DNA of 64,000 nt, taken from positions 3,658,001 through 3,722,000 of the forward strand of contig NW_025791658.1 in assembly GCF_921293095.1 (NCBI RefSeq), written 5' to 3'. Under the pieces are notes generated by a model. That model worked only from the letters and a program-made list of their open reading frames with translations, was not told the DNA's origin and made no database searches. How positions within the stretch are numbered: position 1 is the stretch's first letter; every line of letters begins with the position of its first letter. The stretch is from Ischnura elegans (Eukaryota > Arthropoda > Insecta > Odonata > Coenagrionidae). This document shows positions 14,304-61,508 of the stretch, in pieces. The translations under genes were made by a program, and so were the position numbers.

Positions 14304-15299
14304 GGGTCATTCCACGTCAAATCACCCAGAAATTTTCAAAATGACACCCACCGACTCGGATTTTGATGAAATTTTTGTCACTAGCTACTATCACCTATCT
14401 AATGACCCATGTAAAATATTTCTTCTCTCACTCTCATAGTTTGCAAGATATGAGGAGTCAAAGTTTGAGATGTTTGCTCAGAAGTGGCGCTAGTGGGAGT
14501 CAAATTCCAGAGTGCAGGGCACAGGGTAAAAATTCATAACTCAGAAACCACATAACATATTTGAATGAAATTTTGACCCCTTGTCTATCCAAGTACATAG
14601 CTTCCATAGTAATGTCTTTTATTCCCCTTGCATTGTTATGTTGGCCAAAATGATGTCAACAGTTGTTAATTAACCGATTTTTTTAGCTCAAAAACATTAT
14701 TTCATATTTTCAGAATTATCACCAAAAGGCAGAGCAGTTAACTCATCCAATTTTTTTTTAAATTGAAGGTTAATATGTGCTCCAATATACTGTGAAATAA
14801 AAATGGTGGTGTTTTGACTGCCACTATGAGTATTTCAGGTTTTACTTTTTTTTCTGCCCCTGTGAGAGGGATTTTGGACACGTACTGTAAGATAATAAGT
14901 ATAAGTGTATCCATACCTTCATGAGGATATATTTGAAATATTGGTCAGTAAATCTAAGACCAAACATGTAGTCTAGTGAATGTGGCTCTTGTTCATACAA
15001 TTTTTTTTAATAGCAATACTTGGCTTGTGGCAGCTGAGGGTAAAAAAATCCAAATGGCTCAGAAATGTGAAATGATGCTTTTTTCCTGGAATTTACCCAT
15101 TTTTCAAGTGTTTAGTTTATGGAAAAATTGGTATTAAAATACATTAGACTCTTACTGTGCATTAGAGGATAAATGGAAATACTAATTTAAATAAAATTAT
15201 TTAAATAATACACTTCAATGTGTTTAAGGCATCTCCCGAACATCTCTGGAGGCTCTCTCGGGCAACTAAATGCTTTACAGTACCACCAATTCCATCACA
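14304..15299 (+). repeat. Left arm of the 1-kb inverted repeat
   Basis: Read against the reverse complement of 18210-19197, the arm matches almost base for base from about 14345 to the inner break at CCATCACA. The arm includes the last codons of the transposase, so the inverted repeat overlaps coding sequence. Confidence 0.92.
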
Positions 15300-17476
15300 T
15301 GGGGATATTCCATTGCTTGTAGCAAAGAATGTCCATGATGCCATTAAGGAGAAATCCTGGTAATGCTTGCAAAGATTGAGAAATATTTTGCAGTTCTTGT
15401 ACCGTCCTGCACAACCATCACTAAAGTAACTCAATTTTTTGACTAAAGTAAAATTTTCCTTAACAAAGCAAAATATTATTCTTTGGGTTTCATAAACAAA
15501 AGCTACATAATGCTCCAAATCATCTGACAAGATGCATAAACTGGAAATAATAAGCTGTTTAGTCAGGTGATCTAGAGTATAAATCACAACAGGGTGTACC
15601 GTACAACTATCACTTGTCCAGTGATTCCCTTGTGCCTCATCCTGGATAACATATGAGTAGCTCTCACTGAAGTCAAAGAGAACAGCTGCTTCATGGGGTC
15701 CAAGATTTTCTTTCATTTTCTTAAGGTAGTTTGCCTGTAACTTCGTAGTAAATGAATGGGGCACCAGTTTTTCCACTCTTTGAATTTAAATTGATAGGTA
15801 CTCATCAAATGTCACCGTGAAGTTCACCAGTTAATATCTGTCACTGGAAACCCACTGACTGTATGAAACTTCATCTCCGGGGTCACATTCTTCAAACTTT
15901 TTCAGCACTAAGCTTTTCAATTTTTCACGTGAAGGACACTGAGAGCAATGTCGCAGTATACAGTCCCTATTATTTCTAGAGCACACGAAATAACCAATTA
16001 GGTCCTGGCTTGTTTCCTCTATATTACAGGCACTAAGCAGTAGGTTGACATTTTAATGAATTGTGCAAAAACACACTGAATGCGTTCCATGACATCCTGC
16101 TACCACAAACCATTTTGGACCAAGGTTGCAGAATTTAGAAAAGCCAATTTTAATTCTGGGGAAGTCAAATTTAAACGTGGAATACAATTCCTTCAAGTTA
16201 GCAAGTAATAATCTCTTCTGAACATGTACATTTTTGGAGATACTTATGGAATCTTTCTTTCCAGGCATCATTCTTGAGTACTCATCACTTTCATAGAAAG
16301 TCCTAACTAATTGTAATGTTTTATTTTTGCCTTCCCTTTTCTCAATTCAGGTGCAGCTAATTTTCCATTGTCTCTGAAAAGTTCTCTTGCTTGGCGGGCA
16401 GTGTACTCACTCACATGAAACTCTTCCATTACTTTCTTCCTGCTCCATAAAGTTGGTACCAATGATAACAGATGTACCTTTCCTTGATGAGTGCTTGATG
16501 TGTCAACTTTTTGTTTGATTAACCCGTCAGCGTCCAAAGTTTTTTTTAAATTCACGCATATTTCACTTTTAAAAAATATGAAACTTCACACAAAGAACAC
16601 AATTCAAACTGACTGAATAATGGAGGAAACCTTCTACTAAATATGTGCACTGAAAGGTATGCTAAAATTCACATATTAAATACATTGCCGGAGCATTGGC
16701 TCAGCACTGCACTGGGTGCCCTATGGCACCCGTGGGCGTTGACGGGTTAAGTCTATGAGCACATCTATATCATGAACTTTCTGAAGTAGTTCTTTTGGCA
16801 GTTTTGGCTCATCCTTTTCTGGAGATAATTCTTTATCAAGAAGTCTTTTAACTTTCCTTTTAAAATTACTGCATGCTGACTCTACTTTCCTTTTAGCGTA
16901 GGTTGACCTTCTGTGAGATGATATGCCATGAAATTTTAAAGGTGACTCCTCTATATCTTGCAGCGTTCTGTTAAGTAGCTTAGTTGATTTTTCTTGGGAT
17001 ACTGTTGTTTCAAAATTCAAAATACTATCATTGCTGTCACTATCTACTGCTTCAACATCAGAAAGCTCATTTCCAAACCTGGAGTGTTTCTGTACTTCCT
17101 CCCTACATGGCTGGCATACTTTCATTCCTGGCACTAATTTCCGAAGAGTTGGGATTTTACAGGCCTTTTCTGCAAATTCAAGACTTACATTTCTCAGTGA
17201 TTTTGATATTTTCTTCTTGTGGCTCTTAAAAGGATCAAGACAATATATTTGGTAGGTTTCATACTTTTTCAAATAGTATATTCTGTGATGTTCGCAGACA
17301 TTGGATAGGACTTCCCCAGGTACACCACTTCTGAGAGATAACAGCTGTTTTTCAAGCATACTCATGATCTCAATTTTGTTCAGTTGCACCACTGGTGTGT
17401 AGCTTTTTTTGAGGCAATCAGATGCAGTTACTTTTCCAATGCTGCACAGTTCAACAATTTGCTCATTTTGAAGCAT
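15201..17476 (-). pseudogene. Transposase of the long-arm element, disrupted
   Basis: Minus-strand coding runs from about 17476 to 15203. Its order is an N-terminal region with a CxxC (VCQPCREE), a helix-turn-helix-like segment (VSEYTARQARELF), MMPGKKDSIS, a PKWFVVAG-GTHSVC block, then ALFDFSESYSYVIQDEAQ, YFSDGCAGRYKN and SPCDGIGGTVKH. The Asp residues in the last three motifs are good DDD candidates. Damage: a piggyBac MITE at 16523-16746, a one-base shift at about 16325, and stops at about 16053 and 15790. Similar proteins are common as unnamed transposon proteins in aphids and Hydra (from memory). The copy is inactive but recently so. Confidence 0.78.
16523..16746. mobile_element. piggyBac-like MITE nested in the transposase
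   Basis: TTAA at 16519-16522 and 16747-16750 flanks inverted ends CCCGTCAGCGTCC and (reverse complement) CCCGTCAACGCCC. Removing the 224 bp and one TTAA leaves the surrounding transposase frame continuous across a Leu codon, showing that it landed in coding DNA. Near the right end it has GCACTGGGTGCCC, a motif common at piggyBac-like MITE ends. Confidence 0.92.
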
Positions 17477-18129: not shown

Positions 18130-18209
18130 TTTTTTGGATGAGTGCTTTCTAAACACGAGGAAGAACAAGATGTAAAAGTGAAATTTATGCACCCATATCG
18201 AAAATCCCA
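18130..18209 (+). pseudogene. Stray C-terminal transposase fragment beside the right arm
   Basis: On the plus strand, just inside the right arm, the frame reads VKVKFMHPY. This matches the C-terminal VKFMHPHG-type motif of the same transposase family, and then joins the arm copy at CDGIGGTVKH. The right end therefore carries its own rearranged piece of the gene in the opposite orientation. Confidence 0.5.
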
Positions 18210-19197
18210 ATGTGATGGAATTGGTGGTACTGTAAAGCATTTAGTTGCCCGAGAGAGCCTCCAGAGATGTTCGGGAGATGCCTTAAACACATTGAAGTGT
18301 ATTATTTAAATAATTTTATTTAAATTAGTATTTCCATTTATCCTCTAATGCACAGTAAGAGTCTAATGTATTTTAATACCAATTTTTCCATAAACTAAAC
18401 ACTTGAAAAATGGGTAAATTCCAGGAAAAAAGCATCATTTCACATTTCTGAGCCATTTGGATTTTTTTACCCTCAGCTGCCACAAGCCAAGTATTGCTAT
18501 TAAAAAAAATTGTATGAACAAGAGCCACATTCACTAGACTACATGTTTGGTCTTAGATTTACTGACCAATATTTCAAATATATCCTCATGAAGGTATGGA
18601 TACACTTATACTTATTATCTTACAGTACGTGTCCAAAATCCCTCTCACAGGGGCAGAAAAAAAAGTAAAACCTGAAATACTCATAGTGGCAGTCAAAACA
18701 CCACCATTTTTATTTCACAGTATATTGGAGCACATATTAACCTTCAATTTAAAAAAAAATTGGATGAGTTAACTGCTCTGCCTTTTGGTGATAATTCTGA
18801 AAATATGAAATAATGTTTTTGAGCTAAAAAAATCGGTTAATTAACAACTGTTGACATCATTTTGGCCAACATAACAATGCAAGGGGAATAAAAGACATTA
18901 CTATGGAAGCTATGTACTTGGATAGACAAGGGGTCAAAATTTCATTCAAATATGTTATGTGGTTTCTGAGTTATGAATTTTTACCCTGTGCCCTGCACTC
19001 TGGAATTTGACTCCCACTAGCGCCACTTCTGAGCAAACATCTCAAACTTTGACTCCTCATATCTTGCAAACTATGAGAGTGAGAGAAGAAATATTTTACA
19101 TGGGTCATTAGATAGGTGATAGTAGCTAGTGACAAAAATTTCATCAAAATCCGAGTCGGTGGGTGCCATGCCTGGGTGAACTGACATGGAATGACCC
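18210..19197 (-). repeat. Right arm of the 1-kb inverted repeat
   Basis: Near-perfect inverted copy of 14304-15299. See the left arm and element entries. Confidence 0.92.
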
Positions 19198-20007: not shown

Positions 20008-20715
20008 CAGGGTTGATAAAAATCATGATTTTTTTCAAAAAAATCATTTTTGTTGATTTTTTTTATTTAAATCAGATTTTATTGATTTAAATCTGATTTA
20101 ATTGATTTAAATGAGATTTTTATGATTCTCCATTCATCACAAATTCAGTTATTTGCAAAACTAACTATTTGGGCAGCATATTGGAGAATGATGGTTTGCA
20201 GAAAAAACAAGAGGAAACATATTCTAAACTCCAACTAAACAACATTTAGTCAATCAGGGGAGAGAACTATGGAAGTGCCAATGGTATCAAATTAAAAATT
20301 ACGCCAGCATAATATAAAATTGCCATTGGAAGTATCAAATGTGCTATACTATGTGGTTCTAAAGCATATGAAGTTTAGAAAAATTCTGTGATAGCAACTT
20401 TGTATGGTGCCTACGCTTAGAAGTTAAATCAGAAAACAATTTTTTTTCAACGGATACACTAGTATTCTAACCAAAGCCATTTTTTTAAATTTTCATGTTA
20501 CATGCATTCCTTCAGTATCATTTCTATTCAAGAGCCACCATTGTGCTGATAACTGTCGATTCATTGTATTAATTAAGAAATAAAATTCAAAATTATACAC
20601 TTACAGCTTCCTTTTCTTCACTCTTTAAAAATCAAGCATCTGATTTAAATCACCTGATTTTTAAAAATAAAAATCAAGTGATTTAAATCAAAGTGATTTA
20701 AATCAATCAACCCTG
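20008..20715. mobile_element. hAT-like MITE with ATTTAAATC arrays, copy 2
   Basis: Same family as 9174-9901, with the same orientation and termini and very high identity over the body. It has its own perfect 8-bp target duplication GTCACAGT (20000-20007, 20716-20723), so the two copies are independent insertions. The right subterminal array is one motif shorter than in copy 1. Confidence 0.92.
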
Positions 20716-32630: not shown

Positions 32631-34145
32631 CTAAACATGCATCCGCTTAGTGTGACTATACATTGAAGCCTTTGATTTAAAATGTTTTTCACAATGTTGG
32701 CACTTAAAAGGTCGATGGTCTGAATGGACAGAGTAGTGGACTCTTAGATTACCCATAAAAGTAAATCGTTTCTTACAAATGCCACACTCAAACAGTTTAA
32801 GTTTCAAGTGAAAATTCCTAACATGTATGAACAAGTTGCTGGAATGTGAATACCTTTTGGGACATAAATGACATGCAAATCTCTTTTCAGGATCATGAGA
32901 GAGCAAGTGCAATTTCAAATGACTACGATTCATAAATCCTTTCCCACATGCACCACATTTATGCAAGAGTTCTCCAGATTGGCAAACACGAACATGGGTT
33001 CTGTAGTACCACTTGACCATAAACCTCTTTCCACATTTTGAGCAGCAGTATTTCTTTTCCAAAGAGTGGCAGTATTGATGAAGTCCAAGTTCCGATTGGG
33101 ATGGAAAACAAACGAAGCAAGCACTACATGTATTAGGTCTGTCCATATTATGCACATATTTCATGTGCATTAACACTTTGGCTTTAAATGAGAAGTTCTT
33201 GTAGCATACACTACAAATATATTTACACTTGCTGAAATGAATCGCCTCATGAACTTTCAATTCAGACTCCGTAGGGAAAAATGTGTGACAAGTTGAACAC
33301 TTGTAGGAAACTACAGAGAGATGGCAAACAACAATATGCTCACGAAGTTTTGACTTTGAGAAATGTGGCTTAGTGCAGTAATCGCAGACCACAACCCCTT
33401 GAAACGGGTTTAACGCTGTTGTTGATGTATCAAGGTTGACTATTCCAGCACCCTCTTTAGAAATGGTTTTTAATTCATCTTCATCTTGATCACATGAACT
33501 CACCATCAAGGGAGGAGAAGAAACATAACTTGGCAGTTTTTCATGAAATTTCCTTTGCTTCACTTTCAAGCTCACATCTGATACACCTGCCTCCCCAGTA
33601 TTATCACTTATACATTTATTATTAACCAAAACACCATTACCTTTGCCTAATAAATCTGTGGTTAGTAGTGGTGTGGCTTCACACAATTTAGAATTTACAT
33701 GAAAAGTACTATCTTTGCTCCAGGTGTCCATCAAGGCACTATCTTCAGCCCTCTTGGTTTTCAAACTCTTCAACTGATTGTTTAAATTCACAAAGCTCCT
33801 GTGTTCGCACTGAAAATCATATTTCTTAATGTGCCTCACCAATTTCTTCTCACTTCTAAATTCTTTTTGGCACTTACTACAACATAATTTATTCTTCAAC
33901 AAACTCACTTCTCCAGACAACAACTTGTACTCCTCACTTGAAAGTATTAAGTCCTCACTTTGCTCAAAGCTATCCCTAGTTCCAGTCTCGTCATGTTTCT
34001 TGGCGTGAAGTCGTAGTTCCTCCCGAGAGATGAATTCTTCGTTGCACTTGGTACACCAACAAAACTCCACCTGCGGCAGTTCTTCTTCTTCCGTATCACT
34101 TCCAGCTTTCTCTGTCATAAATGTCCCAGCCACACTGCCTCTATC
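32631..34145 (-). CDS. ZAD-C2H2 gene A, exon 3 (zinc-finger array)
   Basis: The 505-codon terminal exon starts after TTTATAG at 34145 in phase 0 (Asp-Arg-Gly-Ser-Val) and ends with a stop at 32631. After an acidic stretch (DTEEEEL) come about eleven C2H2-like units: two N-terminal (FCWCTKC, LCCSKCQ), a Ser/Thr-rich spacer of about 130 residues, then nine in near-tandem from VVCDYC to FKCQHC. The second unit lacks a clear final His pair and the seventh ends in Cys (C2HC). Linkers only partly match TGEKP. The product is a sequence-specific DNA-binding regulator in the nucleus. The exon is open throughout and joins in frame to the ZAD exons at 40045-40179 and 41593-41742, for a protein of about 599 aa. 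Confidence 0.95.
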   Translation of the reverse strand, partial: DRGSVAGTFMTEKAGSDTEEEELPQVEFCWCTKCNEEFISREELRLHAKKHDETGTRDSFEQSEDLILSSEEYKLLSGEVSLLKNKLCCSKCQKEFRSEKKLVRHIKKYDFQCEHRSFVNLNNQLKSLKTKRAEDSALMDTWSKDSTFHVNSKLCEATPLLTTDLLGKGNGVLVNNKCISDNTGEAGVSDVSLKVKQRKFHEKLPSYVSSPPLMVSSCDQDEDELKTISKEGAGIVNLDTSTTALNPFQGVVVCDYCTKPHFSKSKLREHIVVCHLSVVSYKCSTCHTFFPTESELKVHEAIHFSKCKYICSVCYKNFSFKAKVLMHMKYVHNMDRPNTCSACFVCFPSQSELGLHQYCHSLEKKYCCSKCGKRFMVKWYYRTHVRVCQSGELLHKCGACGKGFMNRSHLKLHLLSHDPEKRFACHLCPKRYSHSSNLFIHVRNFHLKLKLFECGICKKRFTFMGNLRVHYSVHSDHRPFKCQHCEKHFKSKASMYSHTKRMHV

Positions 34146-35914
34146 CTATAAACAAAATGAATGACGAAACTAAAAATTGCACCACCTTTTCTAGGTTCAA
34201 AATCACTTCAAAATACTTATGTCAACAAAATGCTTAAGAAGCATTTTAAAAATTTTTCGAGAACACTATGAATCGCATTTACCCACAGGTGGAACAAAAC
34301 CCTTAGGATGGGCTCGCGGGGTACACTCCTGGGGCAGGGACTGTAAGCGTTAGCTTTTCTCCTCTACCACCAGAAGGGGAAGGACAGGAAGGAGCAAGGA
34401 AAGGAGGCGCCGCCGCGATGAGAGCCCGACGACGCCTCCGGGGGAAGGACGGGGAAGGAAGGGAGGGGACGAGGAATCCTGCACCGTCACAAGGCGGGCA
34501 GGTCCTACTACTAACGAAACCATGCATACGCAATTAATATTCTAACCACCTTGTAGGATTATTCTATGAGGAAGAATAATCCAACGATCAAATCGTTAGA
34601 TCGTATTTACCCACAGAAGCCACGTACCTTTTTTCCCAGATATGCAAGTGATTAAAGAGGTTTGGGCGGCTTACACAAATTCTCCAAATTTTAATGTAAG
34701 CCATTTTCCGTCAAAATGCTGCCATCGTTTATTTCTTGAGAGTTAAGCATTTGTAAAGAAGGTCAAAATCACATTTCTGACATTATTTAACTTTAATAAT
34801 CATATCTCCATACTTCTGGGTTTCATCGCGTGTTTTTTTTCCCAACGACAGTTCCTCTGGCATTCCAACTGGCATCTTCAGGTCGATCGACAGTGGTTGG
34901 AATACGGGAGAAACTGTCGTCGCAAAGAAAATCCACGCCGTTAAACCCAGAAGCATGGAGACATCATCTAGACAACGCCGTGGGAAACTATACATCAAAT
35001 TCAATAATCATGGTATCACAACTTAAATTCATCGATTCACCAATGAATCACAATTTCCTCTATTAGACCGCACCCAAAAAGTGCAAAGAAGTTTTTTTCC
35101 TCACAAGTCAGCCGAAAAATGGGGGTGCATGGGATAAAGGAGGGTGCGGCTTACATGAATAAACACAAAATTACAGAGGCTTCAGCGAATTTTAAATTGA
35201 TGATTGGTAACCCGTTAAATTCCACATCAAATTAACCCGTAAAACCAATCATCAATTTCGAGAATGCAATTTAATCTACACTCGAGAAATTATATGAATA
35301 ATTTTTTGTTACTGTTCTGTTGCCATAACATTCAGAACAATGTCCTGAATCCAAAAATTATTAATTTTTATGGCTGAGAAGCCGGCCAAATTTATAAATT
35401 GATTTAACACTTTTTTTGTGTTGGGTCATTTTAACCAGGTCTATCCCTCAGTGTTACCGTAGCTATCAGTTCTGACGGCTCTCACAATGTATGACTTGCA
35501 AGAATAAAATATGAAGGCATATGCTACATAGTGCCATTCAAGCAAACTAAAAGACTTAATCTATGAATCTGAGAAACACGAGTGGCGTATTTTGGAGGTG
35601 GGAGCCGTTACAATGTGTACAATATGCCCGTAGTAATATTACGCTGCTCACAATTTTCTCATGACCACATGCGGCGTAATATTATGCCAAAGAATAAAAT
35701 TATATCTACTTTATTTTAATTAAATAATTGTAGCATAAGTGATGAATATTTAACTAGTTATGTGATTTGGGCAGAAATTAACATTCGAGCTTAATACATG
35801 GAGCACAAGCTTGCTTCATCGACAGTACGAAAACAGTAACAATCAATGCAAATAATTACTAGGAATAGCCCAAATTTTCCGTATTGCATTCATATTTACA
35901 ATTCATAATTTTAT
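34146..35914. other. Gene A intron 2: GC-rich and repeat-like pieces
   Basis: A GC-rich block at 34310-34510 has no recognised coding content. About 34855-34970 contains CTTCAGGTCGATCGACAGTG, like retroelement 3' junction sequence. 35194-35208 and 35244-35258 form a perfect 15-bp stem (AAATTGATGATTGGT). About 35634-35690 has inverted TAATATTACGC. No exon was seen. Confidence 0.45.
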
Positions 35915-36084
35915 TTAAGTATTCTTGGACTAGCCGCGGTGATAACTTTTACGGAGTCACCCGCAATGCACAAATTGTGCGAAAAATCCACAGAGGAAAA
36001 AAATCATTCGCCTTGACCGGGATTCGAACCCGGATCCCTCGATTTTCGGCCGAGTGCTTTAGCCAGTTAAGCTACCGAGGCGTC
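35915..36084 (-). repeat. tRNA-Phe-like SINE, most complete copy
   Basis: On the minus strand the head has A box TAGCTTAACTGG, anticodon loop CCGAAAA (GAA) and B box GGTTCGAATCC, followed by a body with CCTCTGTGGATT and GCATTGCGGGTGACTCC, ending at ACTTAAA. Position 33 is C, and a fixed tail follows the head, so this is a SINE and not a tRNA. It is the same family as 8510-8775. Confidence 0.8.
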
Positions 36085-36240
36085 ATTCTCCCCTGAAGAA
36101 ATTTGTGGACTATACCGGACAAGGTGGTATGGACTGCCGAGCATATTATGCGACCAGCAGTCCATGTCGTGCGCATGGCACCACAACCGGAGAGCAAAGC
36201 CCGAACTTTGAACACGAGATGTGTTCGCTCTAGACTTATT

Positions 36241-42592: not shown

Positions 42593-43260
42593 AGAAGAAG
42601 AAGTCGGCTATAAATGTAGGGACGTGGAATGTGAGGACAATGATGAGGGCAGGGAAGTTAGCAAAATATCAAAAGGGAAATGGATAAAGGGATGATATAG
42701 ATGTCTTAGGATTAAGCGAGGTGAAGTGGAAGGATGGGGGGGACTGTTGGAGTGATGGTTATAGGGTTGTATATAGTGGTAGGGAGGCAAGCCAGCGATC
42801 GAGGTAGCTTTATTATCAAACAGGGGATGGGTAAGCGTGTGGTAGGTTTAGACCAGGTGACCGATTTAGGTTTCTGGTGGTAGAAATTGAGGCACGACCC
42901 ACCTACCTTGCAGTGGTTCACTATAGCAATCATAGGGATGAAGAAGTAGATGAGGTGTATGAACAGCTAGAGGAAATAATTAGAGAAACCCTGGGTAAGA
43001 AAAATGCAGTAGTGATGGGGGACTGGAGCGCCTCGATCAGGAAAGGGTGGGATGGACATGAAATAGGAGATTTTGGACTAGGAATGACAAGGGAGAGAAA
43101 GCAGCATTTTTTTCAGGAGAAACAAATTAGTCATCACAAACACGTGGTTCAGTCATCATAAAGGGCGAAGGTACACATGGAAAAGTCCAGGGGATGTTGG
43201 GAGATATCCAACAGACTACATTATAGTGAGACAGAGGTTTAGGAATAGCGTGAAAAACTC
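42593..43260 (+). pseudogene. LINE AP-endonuclease domain fragment
   Basis: The plus strand reads INVGTWNVRTMMRAGKLAK, then IDVLGLSEVKWKDGGD, SDGYRVVYSGRE and, further on, VMGDWSASI, the ordered motifs of the exonuclease-endonuclease-phosphatase domain at the start of non-LTR retrotransposon ORF2. The expected Asn in the GDFNA-type motif reads GDWSA here. Stops and shifts occur at about 42690, 42805 and 43160. It resembles the minus-strand LINE at 53722-55015. Confidence 0.8.
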
Positions 43261-48747: not shown

Positions 48748-49216
48748 TTAGTAACATGACATCAATAAATATGTACAAAGTTAAGAGGTATGTCAAAATT
48801 TTTTGTGTATTCTATTCTGTTCTTATATATATATATGTTTATATATATATTTTTTAAATTATATTATTGTATAAAAAACACGATAGTGACATTTTTATGA
48901 AAAAATATTGTATATCGTTGTTATCTTTGTATTTTATATTGCTCATGTTTTTTCTTTCATAGCTCAGAGGATGATTTTAAATAAATCGAAACGTTGACTT
49001 TAACTTGTTTTACATTGACCTAGACTCCAGGAAATATTATAACTTATATTAAACAAGGTCAAGATAAGAAGAGAGAAAAAAATATATAGGTTTATTTTTT
49101 CTGACTATATTAATCAAACAATGATTATTAATTCATAAATTGTTAAACAATAATATAAATAGAATTTTTTAACCCAAAAGCTGCAGGAGCGTAGAAATTT
49201 TGCTGCCACTGTGTGT
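48748..49216. other. Spacer between the two large transposons
   Basis: It contains a (TA)n-rich stretch at about 48825-48860; otherwise nothing was recognised. Confidence 0.5.
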
Positions 49217-49235
49217 CCCAGGGAGAACACCAAGG

Positions 49236-49965
49236 TCAAAAAGACGTCTTCTAGACGTCATTTAGACGGTCGAAATAACGTCTTAATCCCAGGTCAAAAA
49301 AACCTATTTCCTTCCCTCCACCATGACCTATCCACGACGTCTTCTAATTCGTCAAGAAGACGTCTTTTAGGCGTCATTTAGGCGGTCGAAAAAACCTCTT
49401 AATCCCAGGTCAAAAAAACCTATTTCCTTCCCTCCACCATGACCTATCCACGACGTCTTCTAATTCGTCAAGAAGACGTCTTTTAGGCGTCATTTAGGCG
49501 GTCGAAAAAACCTCTTAATCACAGGTCAAAATAACCTATTTCCTTCCCTCCACCATGACCTATCCACGACGTCTTTTAGGCGTCATTTAGTCGGTCGAAA
49601 AAACCTCTTAATCACAGGTCAAAAAAACCTATTTCCTTCCCTCCACCATGACCTATCCACGACGTCTTCTAATTCGTCAAGAAGACGTCTTTTAGGCGTC
49701 ATTTAGTCGGTCGAAAAAACCTCTTAATCACAGGTCAAAAAAACCTATTTCCTTCCCTCCACCATGACTTACCCACGACGTCTTCTAATTCGTCAAGAAG
49801 ACGTCTTTTAGGCGTCATTTAGACGGTCGAAAAAACCTCTTAATCACAGGTCAAAAAAACCTATTTCCTTCCCTCCACCATGACTTACCCACGACGTCTT
49901 CTAATTCGTCAAGAAGACGTCTTTTAGGCGTCATTTAGACGGTCGAAAAAATGTGTAAAATACTA
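49236..49965. repeat. 116-bp subterminal tandem array
   Basis: About six to seven units; CCATGAC anchors lie at 49321, 49437, 49553, 49646, 49762 and 49878, all 116 bp apart except one 93-bp step where a 23-bp segment is missing. Each full unit holds GACGTCTTCT ... AGAAGACGTC, a palindromic pair, plus TTTCCTTCCCTCCACCATGA. Likely transposase-binding sites (inference). Confidence 0.92.
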
Positions 49966-51059
49966 CACAAGGAAGACATATTTTCTTCCCTCCACCAAGG
50001 TCCATTGTGCATAACAAATAGGAAAATAAACAAAGATCATTAATGCTGCCGCGTGCAAGTGACTGTAGAAATGAGAAAGATTAAGATAGTTAATTTCTCT
50101 CGATTCATGGTAAAAATCGTGCGATAGCGCCCGATTCCTATATTGTTTATTGCTCGACTTCTCTATAAGTGCTCACATACTATTTACAATTAATGAAAGA
50201 GGCGACTAAACTGCAGCCTAGATGATCACAACTTCCGGCGAAAATATTTCAACTATATTGCGCTGCGCTAAATATATTCAACTGCGCTCCCATATATCCA
50301 TGAAGACAGAAATGCCGCGAAATTTGACTCTTCTGTCGCGGGAGCCCGGGACGTTAATTTTTGCAGCAATTCTGAGCATCACCATAAACACGACAATGTT
50401 AGATATGCAGACAACTTATAAGTAGCTGATATGCAGTAAGTAGGGAAATGAAATTTTTTCACCGTCGCGCAATTTTTCCAGCATTCTCGCCGTTAAATAA
50501 CGGCGTTTAGCAGACCCTGCGTAACGATGGCTAATGTGAATTTTAACAGCTCTACTCATCTAGGTAATAATTCTCTATGTAAAGTATGTGAATGTGAATT
50601 AGCAATTCAACTGATGTTTGCTGATACTCTTCCATTGTGTGAATCTACCTCCTTTAAGGGAAATGACTCCAAATTCTGCAGTGATGTTTTCTACTGATTT
50701 TGTACCATGTCTAGGTCAATTCTTATTTAGCATTTCAAAATTTGAAAAATAGGTAATATCCTGGCTAAAGTCTTCAGCTTGCAAATAATTAATGGGATTA
50801 ATTAACTATTTTTAGTATTTATTAGTTGAACATTATTTCAGTACATAAATTTGCCACTAAATTTATCTGCCAACTTATGTGCAATGAAGAAGAATAAATT
50901 GAGGAGAAAATTTAATTGACTACAGAATTTTTCAGGTTTAGTCCTTGTAAATTGAGGTTATTCGTGGCCATTATTACAACAGTAGACAATTTAAGACTTT
51001 TTCCTTAAGCAAGTGCCATTACTTAAATAATGGGTGTGAAACTAAGCTTTCATTGCACA

Positions 51060-51330
51060 TGATGAGACATGTTTGCAGCCAGAATAATATGGCATGTATG
51101 AGTTGAGCATGATATGACCCAGCAGGTATGATACTACAAGTTTGCAGCTGGTATAACACTAGAAGTTGGCAGCAACTTTGACATGACAAGACAAGTTAGA
51201 AAAAGCATAACTAGGTTTGATTCAAGCTTGCAGCAAGTTTGCAGGCTTGTCATGACAAGCTTGCTGCAAACTTGCAACTTTGCCATGACAAATTTATGGC
51301 AAGTTTGCAGCAAGTACATATAGCATGCTA
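51060..51330. repeat. GCAAGTTTGCAGC repeat cluster with palindrome
   Basis: Motifs like ACAAGTTTGCAGC recur in both orientations. The core near 51235-51275 is palindromic (GCAGGCTTGTCATGACAAGC). It lies just beyond the last exon of the accessory gene and may be a small foldback element. Confidence 0.5.
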
Positions 51331-51370
51331 TCTCGGTTACTGCATGTGTTATTATTTTCTTTCATACAAA

Positions 51371-53691
51371 TCATTTTCTGAATGGCGCATTTTTCAGCCA
51401 CACCTTTATTGTTTTTTCTGCCACTTCAAGGCGTGAGGAAGGCATTTTTTTTAACACAGCAGCTGCAAAATAAAATGTAATACAGAAAAAAATTAGATCA
51501 AGTGCAACACAACAGTGATCAACACAATTATTTTTTTAAACTAACAATTACAGTTCGCATTGGCACTATAATCATGAGCTAATTTGGGATTATCAATTTA
51601 AATTAATATTTTGCAAGGTTACAAACTATTTAAGTTAACAATTTTTTTCAGAAGTGAACTTTCAGTGTATGTTCGAAGGTTTTCACCAATATGCAGTAGT
51701 TGACCTGAAGACTCCAGCTGGAATGCTAATGTAACTCTCTTTAAGCGAAGTCAACATACATGAAGCAATCCCAAAATAAATGCAGAGGCCTTAAACTTTT
51801 AATCCTTCTAATTGAGCATAAACTGATTCGAAAAGTAATTCTAGTTAATTTTTTGCAACAGCTGACCTGCCTCATTTCAGAGGCAAAGTTTGCACAATAG
51901 ACAATGGGAAAATGAAACAGTATGCAAGAATGGGTAGTTGTGCAAGAATGCAATGAGTTGACCCACTCTAACACATCAAATATAAGAACAGTCCCCATTG
52001 AATTGCGAGAAAAGGTGCACAGGAACATTCTTGGTAATTTTCCTAACTATGATCAGAAGTCTATGTCTGGTACATGTGGCCATACAATGCAATTGAAATG
52101 TCCACCTACCTAAAACCGCTTCACAAATTCTCAACTCCTTGAATGATTTCTTGGGAGCTGTCCCTTGCCAGTTGTAATTCTTGGCTGCTTCGTTAGTAAA
52201 AATTTTTTTTAACATTCTCACTGTTGCTTTTGCCTCATCTGCTGTACCGGCATAAGTACTGATGTAATCAACCTGATCAAGAGGAGAGAGAAATATTATG
52301 CAGCTAAAGAGCATTTCAATAAATCTACTGGAAATCGCAATTAAAGCATAGCCCTATTAATGTTAAAATATTTCAGAAAAAAAGAATGAAAATATTAATT
52401 TATTATAATATCTACATGCTAAATACTTACAAAGGATATCATGCTTTCCTCGCTGCCAAGGAATCTTTCAAATTCCATTATAGCGGAAACACTTTTGAGA
52501 GGCAGTGATGGGAGGCCATTGGGTCTTAATAACCTTTTCTTCCCTGGCATCAATTCGGTCATCAGCATTTCCTGATTCATTATTATCACATCTAGTTTGC
52601 TGCTTAGCTCTGCGACCAATTTACTCAGGACATTCATTTCTGAAAAATATTAAAAATCCATATAATGTCACAGAGACCATCAATAGACAAAGTCCACAAG
52701 GCCAAGCAAATTGTACATGTTCTAGGATTACCCTACTATTCTGATTGTTATTGACTAATTTAGATAGTATATTTCCAGTTCATTAGCAAGCCCAACAAAA
52801 TTTGTATTTGACAGTAAGTTATTACCTACTTTTTATGGGCAAGCAACATAAAAAGTAAATCATTAAGTCCTCCCCAAGTGCAACAAATATTCTTAGACTA
52901 GTCAAAAAAAGGCTTAGCCAAAGTTTGAGAATGAAATCAAACTAACACACCATAAGTAACTACAAACACTGCGTAAAACATTCAGCATAGCTTACCAGAT
53001 CTGTAGTTATCAATGCTTTCTCTCTTTGGTTGCTTCTCCTCAGTTGTCTCCTCATCCTCTGATAAAATAAGTGAATTGGATGAGGTTAGTCTATGAGGTA
53101 ATGAAGTTGGGCAGTCACTGAACGTCGTTTGTCCAGTAGTAGATGGATGAATGGGTGGAGGAGAAGGAATTTTATGTTTAGGTCTTGAGGTATTTTGCAC
53201 CTCATCTGAATCATCAGAGTCATCCATGTTATGGCAAACTGAAATCCGCTTCCACCCTTTACTTGGTGATACATCTCTGTCACTCAAGAACCTCCTGTTT
53301 GGTTTCCTCTTTCTTTTTCTCACGTCCAAATCTGTGTCCAAATTTGAAGTTTCTTCAGCTTGCTTAGCTCCAAGGCGAGCTTTTGAATAGTCATCTAAAA
53401 ATCAAAAATAAAAGTTTTAAAAATTAACTACAGTATCAGACAAAGGAAATTAACAGGTTAAGAATATAGGAAAATACCATAATATCGCATAACACATGTG
53501 TCATGCTTATCCCAGGTTGGCAGAGGGTCAGCTAGGCGAACAATAGCCTTTGAAACTGAAAATTTTGTAGCTGCAGGAGGCCACAGCACTTGTGCCCTTG
53601 AGCTGGCTGGTGGCAGTGGTCCATCAGTTACTATCCATTTTGATGGAATAACTTCACAATTATCCTCCTCCATAAATTTCACCACAGCAAA
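51371..53691 (-). CDS. DUF4806-like accessory gene of the 11.6-kb element, five exons
   Basis: Exons 53478-53691, 52996-53394, 52431-52639, 52110-52272 and 51371-51462 join by GT-AG borders with phases 1, 1, 0 and 1 and no stop until 51371, giving 358 codons plus a stop. The N-terminal part has WDKHDTCVMRYYDDYSKA; then comes a basic, Ser/Pro-rich region (RKRKRKPNRR, a likely nuclear signal), a coiled-coil segment (LSKLVAELSSKLDVIIMN), a DUF4806-type core (VSAIMEFERFLGSEESM; ATVRMLKKIFTNEAAKNYNW) and a tail VAEKTIKVWLKNAPF. The first coding exon is not seen; a LINE (53722-55015) lies just upstream. It is probably an accessory DNA-binding or complex-forming protein of the transposon, an inference from position and family. 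Confidence 0.8.
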
Positions 53692-53721
53692 CTGAAATTA
53701 TTATTATTACATATTATTTTT

Positions 53722-55015
53722 ATTAAAATATTATACCGATTGAGATGGGTTACCATGGAGTACTTAACAAGTACTCTGGGAGCTTCCCTTTCCTTCAAGC
53801 GCTTACCTTTCAATTTGCAGTAAGGCCTCTTCCCTTTCAGTCCATCTAAAAATCCTATTCTCTTCCCTCCCCTCCATCGTTTACCTAACATTCTACCCTC
53901 CAACACTGTTTTCAACATCCCCTCCCCGCCAAGTACTCGCACCACCATTACCTTCTGTCCCCTCTGTATCTCATCTTAAAGCTGCCTCTCCTCACCCACC
54001 ATGTCCAGCACTTTATTGTTCCTCCTCCTTTCCATCCCAGTTACCTTCACCATACCTTCTCCAATTTACCTTCGCCACACCCACATCTCGAATGCCTCCA
54101 GTCTTTTCTCGTCCTCCTTCGCAGGTGTCTATGTTTCTACACCGTAAAGTGCTACACTCCAGATTAGACTCTTCACTAACCTTTTCTTTAAACTCTTACA
54201 TAACGATCCTCTCAGAAGCTCCTTCCTGTTCATGAAAGCCTCCGTTGCTAATGCAATTCTCTTCCTGATGCCCTTAACGTTGTCTCCATTTTTCTCTAAT
54301 ATCCTACCCAAATAGTTGCATTGCTCTACCTGCTTTCTCCACCTACTTTTATCTTGAGGCCCTCATTCCTAGCTTGTGATGCTTTGAGCTGTTCATACAC
54401 CTCATCTACTTCTTCCTCCCTGTGATTGTTGCTGGGCATGTGAATTTGAACCACTACAAGGTTGGTGGATCGCACCTCAATATTAACCACAAAAATTCTG
54501 TGGCTTACATAATCTATACCCACCACACACTTACCCATCTTCTAGTTTAATACTAATGCTACCCCTTGTAAACTTTCCTCCCCATCACTAGGTATGTATA
54601 ATGCTATACCACCAATCCAGTAATCCCCACAATTGTTCCATCTCAACTCGCATAATCCTAAGAATCTATCATCCCTTTTTCCATTTCCCTTTTGTTATTT
54701 TCCCCTCACATTCCACGTCCCTATACTTATTGCTTCTTCTCTATCTTCCTGCTCTTCTTTCTTCATTGCTGCTGCTGCTGATGATGATGAGCCTCTGCAA
54801 GGATTTCGGATGTTGACGAACACGAGGACCTTGCCGACCTCGTTCAATGAGTTTCCAAGGCTCATTTTTGTAGTACCTACTCCATGTTTTCAGGGAAGAG
54901 ATAGTTTGTAGGGTTTCCCACTTCCATTCCATCAGTGCTTTTTACGTGACACCATCACGTGGACTACCTTTAGTCTGACTCCTACCCTCTGACCTATCAT
55001 GGGTGGCCCTACCGG
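53722..55015 (-). mobile_element. Internally deleted non-LTR retrotransposon
   Basis: Read on the minus strand: a 5' untranslated part (about 54850-55015), endonuclease pieces (about 54390-54720, with RSTNLVVVQIHMPSNNHREE and VDEVYEQLKA), then, after a large deletion, RT C-terminal pieces (about 54130-54310, NRKELLRGSLCKSLKKRL and LIWSVALYGVET; about 53740-53945, GFLDGLKGKRPYCKLKGK). It belongs to the same kind of LINE as 42593-43260. Confidence 0.8.
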
Positions 55016-55315
55016 GAATAATTTAGAATTAATCCCACCAGTGCAGCTCTAGGGGTCACAGGAATGGGCAAGTATTTCCATTGCAATAGGGTAATAGCCC
55101 AAGGGAAAGCAAATTGAACCATGAACATTAAAAAATAAAACATGATCACCAAGAAGAATGACACTCTAGAAAAATTAATGCATTTCAGTAAGGCAGAAGC
55201 AATCTTTTGAATTGAATATTGATTATAATTAATTACTAAGCTTAACATTTCTTCATCATCACTTTAAACAACTTATTTTCCCAATATCTATGTAATTGGT
55301 GTTCATGAAAGTTGT

Positions 55316-58300
55316 TCACTTCACAAAAGCATCACTGAAATGAACCATTGGGATGCACAAAAATTGAGAGTTAGTCAAAGGTAGAAGCAGGCACTTTGCA
55401 AATATATCACCTTCACAAAAGGATATTGGTTCTGTTTTTAATTTTGACACTTTCAGAATCCCTAATTCTGATGATTTAATAGGATATTCATAATAGTCAG
55501 ATCCCTCTGTGAATTTATGACCAATGAATTGAACATTGCCTGTTGGTAGGTAAGAAATACTCTGAATGATGACGACATCCTTCGTCTTCAATTTACAGCA
55601 CGAATCACGCTGCCCAATGCTTAATTTTGCACCATTTATTTTCACTGATTTATATTTGATTTTTGATGCATCATCCCGCATGCCCACTTGCGTCTTTGAA
55701 AACTGTGAATTAATACAATCTCCTCGAGGGGAAATTTTCCTCAGGCCAAGTCTCCTCTTCTCAGTTTCACGATTCGCTAGTTGTTGAAGTGGTTTGTACC
55801 CTGATGTCAAAGAATCTTTCACCGACTTCAAACAATTTTCATAAGGAAAAGCAGAAAATGAATCTAATGGCCCATAATTTCGACACTCTGCAGCCAAGTG
55901 AATAAGGCTATGTATGTTGTAGGATACAAATTCTTTCCCGTAAATAGTAGAGCTATGTTTAACAAATGTTTTTAGGCAATTTTCAGCAATATCTGCATGA
56001 GTTTTTACTAATTTTGCACTGGCAAGTATGAATACTCCACAATGTAGGAGAAGGAAGTGCTTGAAAACATTTTCATCCACTAATCTAAACACTTTTAGTC
56101 CATCGTATAGGAGAATGCGCCGAAACTCTGTGGCTTTGTACATTTTCCATTCCGACAGTGGCCTAGCAGGTCGGTTGAAATCACTGGGCAGAAAATTTTT
56201 TACAATATTCAGTTCATTGGATATCATGTTGACAACATCTCTATGCAATTTCCATGGTCCTGGCCATGTCAGCCAGGCATGCAATAGTCTTTTGAAGGCT
56301 CCTTCACATACAAGGTGCATGTATTCTAATCTGAACTGAGAGACCATGCCAGTATTTAAGGCCTCCAATGGTGATGTTTCGGAGGAATGATGAGCCATAT
56401 CAGTACGATTTTGGAATGACTTATCTGTCCTCTCCTCAAAATCAACCCCTGGAAAAGTCATACGGTTGGCATGCCACTCACCAGGCACTGTGCACTTTTC
56501 ACAGGCAGAATAGCCGGTATGACCAACGATACACTTAATGAATGCACGCGCAGGAGCATCTAATATGTAGTTTCTCACAATAAAGTGACACACTTTGTCA
56601 TTGAAGAAAAAACCATATTTTGTAAGCTGCTGAACTTCCTCAATATATTGAGCAAGAAATGACCCCAAGCTAGATGGTTTCCCTTTGCCACAAAACACTT
56701 GAATAATAAATGGACCTCCTTTATCATTGTTTAACATACCCATAATAGGCCAAAATTGTACCGAGGAACTCTTAGATAAAGGTAACCCATCAATGGCAAT
56801 ATCAATTATTATAACACTGTCGTGCTCATTTAGGTAATCTTCTGTCAAAATTGAGGTGAGATTCACTGCGATACCTTGGTACCATAGTTCACCATTACTC
56901 ATAGCTATGGTTGTAGTACGCCTGGGTGTTTTTAAAAGGGTCTTATAGCTCTTTGGAATAGAAGGAAACAATGGCTTTAACCTGAAGAGGAGTTCATCAA
57001 CTTTCCTTTATGAAACTCCCTGCGATGCCCACTCCTGCAGTGATTTCATTAAGTATGAAGTCTTCTCCTGCTCATTTTCAGTAAGGACAGGACCCATAAC
57101 TTCCCCCTCTTCCTCACTTTGTTCAGACAACACACTTTCCCCTGCATTCAGGCTTCCGAAAGAACGCTCACTTTCCTGACTTGTGATGGACCCATCTTCA
57201 CTTTTAAATTTTTCAGGAGAACAATCGATGTCTGAACCAAAGGAAGATAGGCCATCACACTCAATGTTTGAGGTCGAAAAGGAAGCAGAGCTATTACTTT
57301 CATCAATGTCCTGATTTTCAGCAATCCTCACTAAGTGCTCCAAACGCAATTTTTTTCTGACACACTTTTCTGCTCTATGCTTCCGGGTTTTGGAGCACAC
57401 CTAAAAATGTATTCATGGAAAAGAATATCATATGACTGCAATCTAATATTATGTACCAACTAATATTATAATAGTCGCCAAAATATGGCGCCCTCAATGC
57501 CACTTCCGCGTATCATTAGAGTAGTCTGATAGCTGAATATGGAAAATGTTGACATTAACTTTGTTGTTGCAATTGTCCAATTAGCATAAGAATATTGAAA
57601 ACAGATTTTTTAATTTTTTCAAAAAATTTTAACAACAAAATATCATAAGATGGCTAAATTCGACTTTCAAACATTTTAAAATAATGTATTAGGTATTACT
57701 TTTTTGAAATCCAGTAGCATTTTCAAAGCAATTTCAAAATTATTTCCATTATGATATTTCCATTCTATTCGGGTTTCTTCACCGCGTTTGTTGTATTTTA
57801 AAGACAACAGTTTCGCCGGCGTTACAGTCGGCGTCTTCAGGTCAAAGGTAAAATTTTTGGAAAATTTTTTCGCCTTTTATAGGCATAAAATTTTCCGCCT
57901 TATATAGGCGGCGGCGGCTGCTGATCCGCTGCTGCTCTCTCATTGGCCGGTTGTCCATCTCTCATTGTTGGTGGTCGGAGAATCCTCTTCCATGCAGTAT
58001 GCAAGCTGTAGCCTTGATCTCTGTTGAAATTTGCGGGCGTTTTCGCTATCTCAATAGCTTCTCTGATCAAGCGAGGGAAGTATTTATTCTCTTTAGCTAT
58101 TATCCTGGCGTCTTCAAAGAGGATGTTATGCCCAGGTTCACTCCAAGCATGCTCAGATATGGCTGAGAGTTGGTGCTGCTTGTTTTTCATAGCCCTCCGA
58201 TGTTCCTGCAATCGGACTTTCATTGATCTGCAGGTCTCGCCAATGTAATATTTACCACATGAGCAAGGCACTCGATATATACCCTCATAATGGTCCATTG

Positions 58301-59063
58301 GGAGTTTGTCCTTCGCTCCGGGTAGCATGTCTGATATCTTTGCCACGCAATTGAAACGTGTAATTACGTTGTGTTTTCTGAGCATTCTGGCAATCTTTTC
58401 TGATGTGCCCGCCACAAAGGGAATTGTGGCGTATGCTTTCGGCTCGGCCTTTATCGTAAACAAAAAAACTAGAAACAACTGACGGCCGCACTGCACACCT
58501 GCAGACCACCACAGGCGCCAATTTTTAATCACCTAACCAGTCTAACCTCGTCCGTACTTCCGGAATACCCAATAATACCTTAAGTGCAGTAAATACGATA
58601 TAAGTTCACCATTTCCCGAAGCTGCTGGTAGACATAACGATACCGTCATTGTACAAGCGATCAACAATCGCCCACCGAATCCAATCCACTTATCTGGGTT
58701 AATGATAAATACATAAAAAGATAATAAAAAAGTAATTGGCTCCAAAAAAGGGACACTAAACAGGAAATCATATAAATGCACTTCTACGATTAGCCGTAGC
58801 ATTAATTCATTGATAGCATAGAAGAGGTTTTTTTATCATTCTGTTTTTCGAAGTCAGGCCATGCCGCGTCAGCCACAATTTCATTAATGAACGGCGGAAT
58901 TGAGATTGAGAACGTTTTAGTTACGGTCACCCATGAGTAAGGGTATATAGGCGTAGAAATTATGCGGATTGAAATATCGAGATAGAAGCCAATAATGTGC
59001 GATAATAAAAAGCATTCAGATACTTACAGGTTTGCCAGTTTCTTCTACTCCCGTGTCCTCCAT
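55316..59063 (-). pseudogene. CACTA/EnSpm-like transposase, one in-frame stop
   Basis: Exon 1 (59028-59063, MEDTGVEETGKP, donor GTAAGT) joins in phase 0 to exon 2 (55316-57400, acceptor TTTTTAG). Exon 2 is open for 130 codons, meets one TAA at 57008-57010, then is open in the same frame to 55316; conserved sequence (SLQEWASQGVS before, RKVDELLFRLKPLFPSIPKS after) spans the stop. Motifs: IIIDIAIDGLPLSKS (first Asp), CxxC in YSACEKC, MHLVCEGAFKRLL, and YNIHSLIHLAAECRNYG with SFSAFPYEN (third acidic residue). These resemble animal tnp2/EnSpm transposases. An acidic Ser-rich region lies at about 57060-57300. With a single stop this is nearly intact; a functional sibling is plausible. Confidence 0.8.
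57770..58532 (-). pseudogene. Penelope-like retroelement 3' part (GIY-YIG endonuclease)
   Basis: A 210-codon minus-strand frame (57900-58532) has YEGIYRVPCSCGKYYIGETC, then MKVRLQEHRRAMKN, SAISEHAW and FPRLIREAIEIAK, the complete order of the Penelope-type GIY-YIG endonuclease, including the Tyr and Arg-His pairs. The reverse-transcriptase part is missing. The 3' side shows the family's CTGAAGACGCCGACTGTAAC sequence. It sits inside the intron between the two transposase exons, so it landed after the host transposon formed. Confidence 0.9.
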
Positions 59064-60027
59064 ATCCGTGAGATCACACGAAAAAATTTCAGTATCCGGG
59101 TAACTTAAGTTAAATAATAATAATTATTATTATTAACTGATAAAAGTTCTATTTGTACTACGTTTGCACGCCATACAACGATACAACTCAGTATGAACAA
59201 ACTGCTGTGAAAATCTGTTTGTTTAGACCGTTGTTACAGGAAAAGGTTCGCATGGAAACCAATTAGTTTGCGTTGTTAGTGGTTGTTACGGATTGCCATT
59301 ATAATAAATAACTATGTTCCTTGCAAGTTCCTTGTTAGCTCTAATTTTTGTGATAGCATTTGCATGAACAATTAAGTCACATATGTGACCTAACGGTGGA
59401 AACGAGCTCAATTTAGAAATGTAATAGATAATCATATAGATACCACCGAGGGGAAGAAAAAATTATACGCATTCGCCGTATCATTGTTATTTAATATTAT
59501 GTATGCCGGAAAATATGCCAGAAATACATGTAGTCGAAATTGTTATTTGCTTCACAAATTTTCGTCTTCATATTTTCAGAAATAGGTTTTTGGCAATTTC
59601 AGATTTTAAAAGATATTTTGTGTTATGTTCGAGTTTTCTACATTTCGCAATATATTTTGTTTCTCCGACATTAATCTATGTTAAGTTTTCTTTTGGTTGC
59701 TCACAGTTAAAAAATTACTTCATTCATCTCCTGTTTTTAGATGACCTATTTTACCTATTTATCTTTTATCATCATCAGTTCATCATCATCTATTAGGGTA
59801 TTTTCCTTGGATATTATAAGGTGGAAGGAAGAAAATATGTCTTCTTGGTGTATTTTACACGATAGTTTAAACATCAAAATGCCGTCTTTTTCGCCAACCA
59901 CGAGAGGTCGTGATTGGTTCATATGGTGGAGGGAAGAAAATAGGTGTCATTGACTTGGGATTAAGAGGTTTTTTTAGAACATCAAAATTTGACCTTGGGT
60001 TTCTCCCGCCCTAGCGGCAGTGGTTAA

Positions 60028-60810
60028 CGATATTTGATTTTGAAAAAAAACTGGCATGTCAGGCCCTAATATAAGCTGGCAACTTTCCCGCAAAGGGAAA
60101 ATTTATAGGGAATATGCATTATTAATATGAGATCGAGAGGATTTTCTCACCATCTAAATGACGTTTTTTTGACGTCTTTTCGACCTCTTTTGAAGACGTC
60201 TTATTCGCCGTTTTCTAGACCATTTCAAAACCAAACATAGACCACGTTAATGATGAAGTAAATACATTTGGAATTAACGAGTAATCTTCATGAAAATGGA
60301 TTCCAGAATTCCTTATAACTGCCAAGTGAACTATTTAAACAGCTTTTCCTCACAATTTTCACTGGTCATTTTTTTTCTTTTCAAGACCAAAGTAAAACCA
60401 CTTTAGCGTTAGGTGGTCAACAATATCTGATTTTGAAAAAAAATAGGATCGAGACCTTGATATAAGCTGGCAACTTTCCCGTAAAGGGAAAATTTATAGG
60501 GAATATGCATTATTAATATGAGATCGATAGGGTTTTCTCACCATCTAAATGACGTTTTTTTGACGTCTTTACGACCTCTTTTGAAGACGTCTTATTCGCC
60601 GTTTTCTAGGCCACTTCAAAACCAAACATAGACCACGTTAATGATGAAGTAAATAAATTTGGAATTAACGAATAATCTTCATGAAAATGGATTCCAGAAT
60701 GTACTAAAACTGCAAAGCGACGCATTAAAAAACTTTTGCTCATCATTTTTGCTGGTCATTTTTTTTCTTTTCAAAACCAAAGTAAAACCATTGACCATTT
60801 CATGACCTAT
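60028..60810. repeat. Duplicated 391-bp subterminal unit
   Basis: Two tandem copies (starts about 60028 and 60419) share GCTGGCAACTTTCCC, GGGAATATGCATTATTAATA, TGAAGACGTCTTATTCGCCG and AACCAAACATAGACCACGTT, 391 bp apart. They lie just inside the right terminus and carry the same GACGTCTT motif as the left array. Confidence 0.9.
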
Positions 60811-60855
60811 AAGACGTCTAGAAGACGTCTTATAGGTCTTGGTGTTCTCCCTGGG

Positions 60856-61508
60856 GTGGGACATGAGCGGGGAAGATATTTTTCAGTCGACCCTGGGCGT
60901 GTGTCTAGAAGATAGTTGACCCTCATTATCTGGGACTGCCCAATCTACCCCCTGACGACATACCATGAATACAATTGAGCCCTTTCTAAGAATCAAAATT
61001 TCAGTGGAAAATCCAGAAAGAGATTATAATGCTCAAAGGAAAGAAATGTCCATGGAAATTATGCAGGGGTGACCCACCACCAGAAGTATAAGAAAGAGAG
61101 ACCAATGCTTTCAAATAAGTTTCCCTGGCTAATGGACAATGGCAAGATAAATAAATTCCTAGGAAATGCAAGGATTCGTTGGAATTGTTTTCATCGCGAA
61201 TGCACTGCAGAGAGCAGGGAGCTCCCTCTCTCTCAGAGAAGGGATAATCCGGGTAGAGCTCCCCGTGGAAAGGGTGCCAAGTTCTCAAAGGATGCCTTTA
61301 TTGCTCTCTGCCATTAGGTTGGGCTGAGTGAGTTGGGCAATTGCGGAAAGGACGGCAATAAAATCCCAGGAAAAAGAGAAAGTCTGGAAATGCGAAGAGG
61401 GATGACCACAGCAAATGTAGGAGCTACGTTTGCCGCAGCCACAGAGGGTCACTCAATGGAGTGGTGCCAATAGCGTAACTTTGGGTAAATTCGGCCCTGA
61501 ACGTTTAA
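60856..61508. other. Flank of the big transposon, nothing firm
   Basis: An 82-codon plus-strand frame at 61069-61317 has no recognised similarity. No repeat structure was seen. Confidence 0.4.

Follow-up and report, generated by a model that had tools for sequence, protein, structure and literature searches.

This locus raises the question of whether two intron-containing genes, one for a transposase and one for a protein with a DUF4806 domain, belong to a single mobile element, and of what the second protein does beside the first. They lie in a 64,000-nucleotide stretch of the Ischnura elegans genome (the window, G000:C15:3658001-3722000), for which a sequence-only reading had proposed a nearly intact transposon with matching termini, subterminal arrays and a relation to CACTA/EnSpm elements. 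The segment 49217–60855 is one transposon insertion of 11,639 bp, a CACTA-like element apparently of the TRC type. The full explanation that we regard as the best, with a probability of roughly 0.65, is a cut-and-paste, CACTA-related (TRC) animal transposon with two genes, in which the DUF4806 protein would act as a TnpA-like partner of the transposase.

The borders of the element were determined by searching the genome (1.72 Gb in 110 contigs) with both ends. At most 40 of the first-look candidates were scored for each terminus or flank query, so that the counts given here are lower bounds. Inverted-repeat scanning and these searches delineated a terminal inverted repeat of 49 bp (left, 49217–49265, + strand, beginning CCCAGGGAGAACACC; right, 60807–60855, − strand), 88% complementary between the two window ends, and the ends of the window family read CCCAGGG (CCC..GGG). 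Among at least 86 matches to the left-end query and at least 77 to the right-end query, many of which are array units inside one copy, the most frequent starts were base 1 of the former query (49217) and base 16 of the latter (60855), showing that the borders of the sequence-only reading are exact. Twenty further places were fetched from these searches, and 17 of them carried both ends together; L073, L076 and L080 were left out, one end being absent or displaced. Flanks of 2 bp matched in 14 of the 18 copies composed of the window copy and these 17 (window, L061–L068, L070, L071, L075, L078 and L079), for which the chance is 3e-14 at 1/16 per copy. In the window copy the duplicated target is GT (49215–49216 and 60856–60857, + strand); specificity for TA was considered and rejected, as the targets include GT, TA, GG, AT, CC, AA, AC, TT, CA and AG.

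Empty sites were then sought by joining the two flanks of a copy and removing one target duplication. The joined window flanks minus one GT matched the two halves of the window site itself, and in all 38 other scored matches (40 scored of 418 candidates) the junction was crossed, at 88–90% identity and with equal query and target lengths in 36 of the 38. These matches are copies of a host repeat covering approximately bases 103–293 of the query, indicating that the target was a dispersed repeat, in which insertion of the element led to a duplication of 2 bp (GT). For L075, 19 of 34 matches were full-length unoccupied copies at 98–100% identity, the remainder being one that partly spans the junction, the two halves of the occupied site and 12 covering one side only. 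For L078, the junction was spanned in 38 of 38 other scored matches at 82–87% identity, with length differences of mostly 8–14 bp, and this test is supportive only. In addition, L064, L065 and L066 are 99.9% identical on three different contigs, which points to recent movement, and the non-autonomous copies share only the end regions with the window copy (8 of the 17 copies aligned to the window). The proposal of one mobile unit was thus borne out by the inverted repeat at the exact borders and by the unoccupied repeat copies, and its termini recur together elsewhere, with a 2-bp duplication in 14 of 18 copies and with empty sites for the window copy and L075.

Subterminal arrays had been claimed for both ends and are present at both. 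Repeat scanning of the left end revealed an array (49235–49951, + strand) whose 116-bp units carry AGACGTCT palindromes, and the right end contains two 391-bp repeats (60020–60790, − strand) that were found by a direct-repeat scan and the right-end genome search. Next to the latter lies an inverted remnant of a left-type array (59816–60010, − strand), which ends in what is by eye an internal terminus-like sequence (approximately 59988–60010).

Both genes are located on the minus strand, confirming the claim of two co-oriented, intron-containing genes. The transposase gene was read as a small exon 1 (59028–59063), which encodes MEDTGVEETGKP, has the donor GTAAGT in phase 0 and is proposed to be common to both genes, followed by exon 2 (55316–57400), which encodes 130 aa, a single in-frame TAA at 57008–57010 and then 563 aa of open frame; the transposase is therefore one stop from open, as the sequence-only reading had it. 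For comparison we used the transposase of a related two-gene family, L081, which shares 50% identity with that of the window. D69/D73, D150, C169-x2-C172, H366-x3-H370 and E390 are invariant between these two sequences. These residues make up the motifs D, D, C(2)C, H(3)H and E that characterize the CACTA/CMCT clade, the assignment of residues to motifs being our own; D, D, C(2)C, H(3-4)H, E is the published motif set of CMCT transposases (PMC12730594). An NCBIfam search gave no match, a search of Protein Data Bank (PDB) sequences gave a single weak match (E 0.042), and an AlphaFold2 model of the 563-aa transposase alone had a mean pLDDT of 35 and was not used.

The partner gene consists of five exons: A (53478–53691, beginning FAVVKFMEEDNCEVIP), B (52996–53394, an acidic/basic linker), C (52431–52639, helix-like by eye, with the start of DUF4806), D (52110–52272, DUF4806) and E (51371–51462, with the end of DUF4806 and the stop codon), all on the minus strand. 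Phase is kept across every junction, as had been stated (intron phases 1, 1, 0, 1), giving 358 aa without a stop. The predicted protein matched DUF4806 (PF16064) at 33.9 bits and E 4.1e-8, above the Pfam gathering cutoff of 25 bits, so that of the two profile assignments suggested by the sequence-only reading the one for DUF4806 stood and the one for transposase profiles stayed under the cutoffs. No match to the partner was found in the PDB sequence search. A genome search with the Pfam DUF4806 profile gave no match either, and is uninformative because control genomes gave none, the likely reason being that splicing splits the domain.

The two genes also recur together elsewhere in the genome. 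In the L081 family, an element on C4 at 790–7896 of L081 (7,107 bp, with TA on both sides) has ends CCCAGTGAGAAATGGG, the family ends being CCCAGTG, and holds a transposase of 740 aa without an internal stop and an open partner of 420 aa, which matches DUF4806 at 27.1 bits (E 5.2e-6, above the same cutoff). The partners of the window and of L081 are 31% identical over the full length (E 7e-46) with the same intron phases of 1, 1, 0 and 1. Matching flanks were also found in two more two-gene copies, C19:7.45M (AA/AA) and C7:3.6M (TA/TA, one end lacking one base). Pooling two genome searches with partner queries gave 14 partner places, and at 11 of them a transposase from the transposase search (at least 77 matches listed, 755 first-look candidates) lies upstream on the same strand: the window, C12:7.27M, C4:124.57M, C19:7.46M, C5:32.7M, C7:3.6M, C19:12.5M, C13:9.27M, C2:33.67M, C17:6.97M and C14:5.03M. 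Conversely, the partner was seen at 11 of 19 transposase loci of at least 43% identity, and wherever the two genes were found together it followed the transposase in the same orientation. The expectation that other copies would hold both genes therefore held for the relatives, but in the window's own family both ends and both genes were seen together only in the window copy. Its sister at C12 has both genes and the right end, with several stops in the transposase and several indels in partner exons D and E. As for the other places, the left end of C5:32.7M and both ends of C13:9.27M were not at the predicted positions, one end was seen at C19:12.5M, and the right end, the only one sought, was found at C7:84.15M.

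The window and C12 copies also allowed an estimate of selection. Between them, 24 of 1072 aligned sites are different in the partner exons, compared with 67 of 1373 in the introns and immediate flanks (Fisher p 5e-4). For the partner, pN/pS came to 0.28 over 354 codons (p 0.002). For the transposase it was 0.24 over 533 codons from the first 1602 bases of the 563-aa frame (p 6e-9), excluding three codon pairs with stops. Judged from these comparisons, the partner is under purifying selection.

The first 500 bp of the L081 element (L081:790-1289) have the terminal repeat at both sides and also stand alone as a short derivative, for which all 40 matches scored of 814 candidates were 99–100% identical, two of them being the two-gene copies on C4 and C19; the 2-bp flanks of the short copies matched in 4 of 4 checked. 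This derivative apparently reflects a very recent burst. We also observed in both families that the block upstream of the transposase has terminus-like sequence at its inner side too (window 59988–60010; L081:1289), and this end block looks as if it were able to move alone. With its open frames, near-identical two-gene copies and numerous short derivatives at 99–100% identity, the L081 family suggests recent activity of such elements in this genome.

How the DUF4806 partner might act is suggested by the sequence of the ends. Palindromes with an ACGT core (NNACGTNN) were counted in the end regions and interiors of the window and L081 elements and in host flanks, with 200 shuffles for comparison. 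In the window, AGACGTCT occurs 6 times at the left end, 4 times at the right end and not in the interior (shuffles of the ends: mean 0.33 and 0.21, maximum 3 in each). In L081, a different ACGT-core palindrome, CCACGTGG, occurs 5 times at each end and twice in the interior (shuffles: mean 0.14, maximum 2 in each). More telling is that the palindromes differ between the two diverged families while sharing one core. We infer that the partner is a TnpA-like protein binding the ACGT-core palindromes in the end arrays. In the mechanism that we propose, the transposase would act at the CCC..GGG ends with cuts staggered by 2 bp, and the DUF4806 partner would bind the palindromic arrays at both ends as a dimer; the array-bound partner would pair the ends and position the transposase, and it may also repress the promoter, as TnpA does in maize En/Spm. 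Both proteins probably share a promoter and a small first exon, whose phase-0 donor would be joined either to the transposase exon or, with that exon skipped, to partner exon A. In both families, phase 0 applies to the donor of exon 1 and to the acceptors of the transposase exon and of exon A, and the L081 counterpart of exon 1 reads MENAKP|GTGAGT, compared with MEDTG..KP in the window. In L081, an in-frame ATG is lacking near the start of exon A. The gap of 130 bp between the L081 transposase and exon A, which was the gap searched for another first exon, contains one ATG with a phase-0 donor, and this donor is poor (GTCACT). A shared first exon with alternative splicing is suggested by these compatible phases, by the lack of an exon A start codon in L081 and by the poor donor in the gap.

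Several observations weigh against the explanation by a TRC-type transposon with a TnpA-like partner. The flanks do not match in 4 of the 18 copies (L069, L072, L074 and L077), and the left end of the C12 sister was not found in the 2.4 kb fetched. No listed transposase is present at 3 of the 14 partner places (C7:84.15M, C3:131.551M and C3:131.575M), and the partner matches at C2, C17 and C14 are confined to exon C, with weak E values of 2e-4 to 4e-4. With the queries used, the partner was undetected at 8 of the 19 loci, namely seven copies of one 45% group and the fragment C12:65.5M, and no partner match was found beside listed transposases of at most 39% identity. As to the transposase, DUF4218 reached 21.6 bits (E 2e-4) in the window protein, under the Pfam cutoff of 27 bits, and E 0.077 in that of L081, and the Pfam search with Transposase_21 matched neither; the CCC..GGG ends of the element, fixed by the empty sites, differ from the 5'-CA..TG-3' usual in CMCT elements. 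As to the palindromes, the ACGT core was picked after inspection, 8-bp palindromes of every kind, counted together, stayed within the shuffle maximum in all four end regions, and NNACGTNN sites also number 2 in the left host flank (shuffle maximum 2; right flank, 0). The counts are moreover not independent, because the palindromes sit in repeat units. The exon and splicing models are predictions from the DNA sequence, and the BEN-like nature of DUF4806 depends on one passage in the accessible part of PMC11075544, which calls it a BEN subtype, citing Pan et al. 2023.

These observations bear differently on the other explanations. If the transposon is real and its partner is a captured host gene that takes no part in recognizing the ends, being instead a hitch-hiker, a regulator or an anti-silencing factor, the many related transposases in the genome without a detectable partner would be accounted for, and DUF4806 also occurs in gene families of beetle, hydra and zebrafish for which the available literature gives no explanation. 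We consider this unlikely, yet it is the foremost competitor. Against it, the partner is colinear between two families with transposases of 50% identity and its introns keep the same phases in both, weak partner exon matches occur beside transposase relatives of 43–48% identity, the partner is judged to be under purifying selection, and ACGT palindromes are found at both ends in both families. That the two genes came from separate elements, or from the host, and lie together only through nesting would fit the unrelated inserts in the window copy, which prove that nesting occurs, and the 3 of 14 partner places lacking a listed transposase. The same order and strand at 11 places, and the presence of both genes in 7.1 kb between the matched ends of L081 with TA/TA flanks, already contradict it, and we give it hardly any weight.

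An assignment to another CMCT lineage (Plavaka, ESTA, Lanisha or an undescribed one) instead of the published TRC group would agree with a weak match of the window transposase to the Pfam Plavaka profile (E 0.13), with ends other than 5'-CA..TG-3' and with the 2-bp duplications also made by PlavakaA; in addition, the TRC group is known here by its published description and not by protein comparison. On the other hand, PlavakaA has the ends TGT..ACA and PlavakaB the ends CATCA..TGATG, and CCC ends with 2-bp direct repeats are those of three animal TRC elements in the accessible text of PMC1636069, which makes this assignment improbable, more so than capture of a host gene. The TRC-type transposon with a TnpA-like partner remains the preferred explanation. 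It may extend further: DUF4806 proteins would be an animal counterpart of TnpA, namely BEN-like palindrome binders that co-evolve with terminal arrays and are expressed via an exon shared with the transposase, and many expanded DUF4806 families would be transposon genes or their domesticated descendants. We offer this generalization tentatively, as doubtful rather than probable; the element does provide a possible explanation for the unexplained DUF4806 expansions. In the accessible literature, no tie of DUF4806 to CACTA-like transposons was found in a search that left out Repbase and most subscription journals, where the partner may already be recorded, nor was a paper found that joins EnSpm, the BEN domain and transposase.

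The window copy itself is less complete than 'nearly intact' had implied. A dispersed repeat unrelated to the element occupies approximately 50564–51340 in the left interior (no strand assigned; genome copies at 72–81% identity, 40 scored of 486 candidates), and we noted that it contains GCAAGTTTGCAGCAAGT-like units. Between the genes, a fragment at approximately 53840–54960 (no strand assigned) is LINE-like, its borders and nature being read by eye; within it, 54387–54701 matches 42663–42968 at 75%. Intron 1 contains at approximately 57900–58532 (− strand) a further fragment with a GIY-YIG-like motif, recognized by eye and without a Pfam match, which we take to be Penelope-like. The unrelated inserts explain the length of the window copy. 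With one stop, one dispersed-repeat insert and two more inserts seen by eye, the copy is broken and has lost the ability to move itself.

Other elements were observed elsewhere in the window. Two inverted repeats of 973 bp (14341–15313 and 18197–19169; 99.6% identical, 2.9 kb apart), with open reading frames (ORFs) of 194 and 262 aa located within the repeats and in the interval that separates them, look like a young long-inverted-repeat element. An ORF at 10926–11723 matches DDE_Tnp_1_7 (E 4e-25) and is presumably of the piggyBac type. Copies of a repeat of approximately 700 bp, rich in TGATTTAAATCA and beginning CAGGGTTGATAAAAATC, lie at 9174–9864 and 20008–20705 (97% identical), and tRNA-like genes identified by ARAGORN (Ser and Phe) lie in 90% similar repeats at 8598–8777 and 35914–36095, probably tRNA-derived SINEs. 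A 504-aa C2H2 zinc-finger ORF (32631–34145, − strand, E 3e-26) is perhaps a host gene.

Among known systems, the closest are the animal TRC elements, known since 2006. According to the accessible text of PMC1636069, SmTRC1 of Schistosoma mansoni and the TRC elements of Aedes aegypti and Tribolium castaneum have CCC-core inverted repeats, that of Aedes being CCCAGTCAAC, and 2-bp direct repeats, seen in 7 of 14 SmTRC1 copies, with element sizes of approximately 4.5, 5.2 and 9.2 kb. According to the same text, SmTRC1 gives rise to multiple alternatively spliced transcripts, and the accessory proteins, which were suggested to play a TNPA-like role, lack detectable relatives and are unmatched in other animal elements. 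The CCC core and the 2-bp duplication are common to these elements and to that of the window, and so, judged from the motifs here and the published description there, is probably a CACTA-related transposase; the differences are that the partner here is a conserved DUF4806 protein and that Transposase_21 is without a match. In maize En/Spm, alternative splicing yields TNPA, which binds the subterminal repeats, and the transposase TNPD, and both proteins are required (accessible parts of PMC2613891 and PMC1636069). A second protein beside the transposase, subterminal arrays and non-autonomous copies keeping the ends are shared with En/Spm and plant CACTA elements, whereas the latter have CACTA ends, with a 3-bp duplication in the soybean element (accessible part of PMC2613891), and the splicing relation proposed here comes from exon phase. 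The relation to CACTA/EnSpm put forward at the outset therefore holds in part. The CMCT motif set, the subterminal arrays and the second protein agree with it; by the strict definition (CACTA or CAC..GTG ends with a 3-bp duplication) the CCC ends and 2-bp duplication of the element place it outside the canonical group. Relative to the CMCT clade as a whole, its motif order agrees with that of the clade, and its duplication falls within the range of 2–5 bp. By its ends and duplication, the window element appears to fit the published animal TRC group rather than canonical CACTA, and, with a partner of named domain, matching intron phases, selection on both of its genes and family-specific ACGT palindromes, it makes the TnpA question directly testable in animals.

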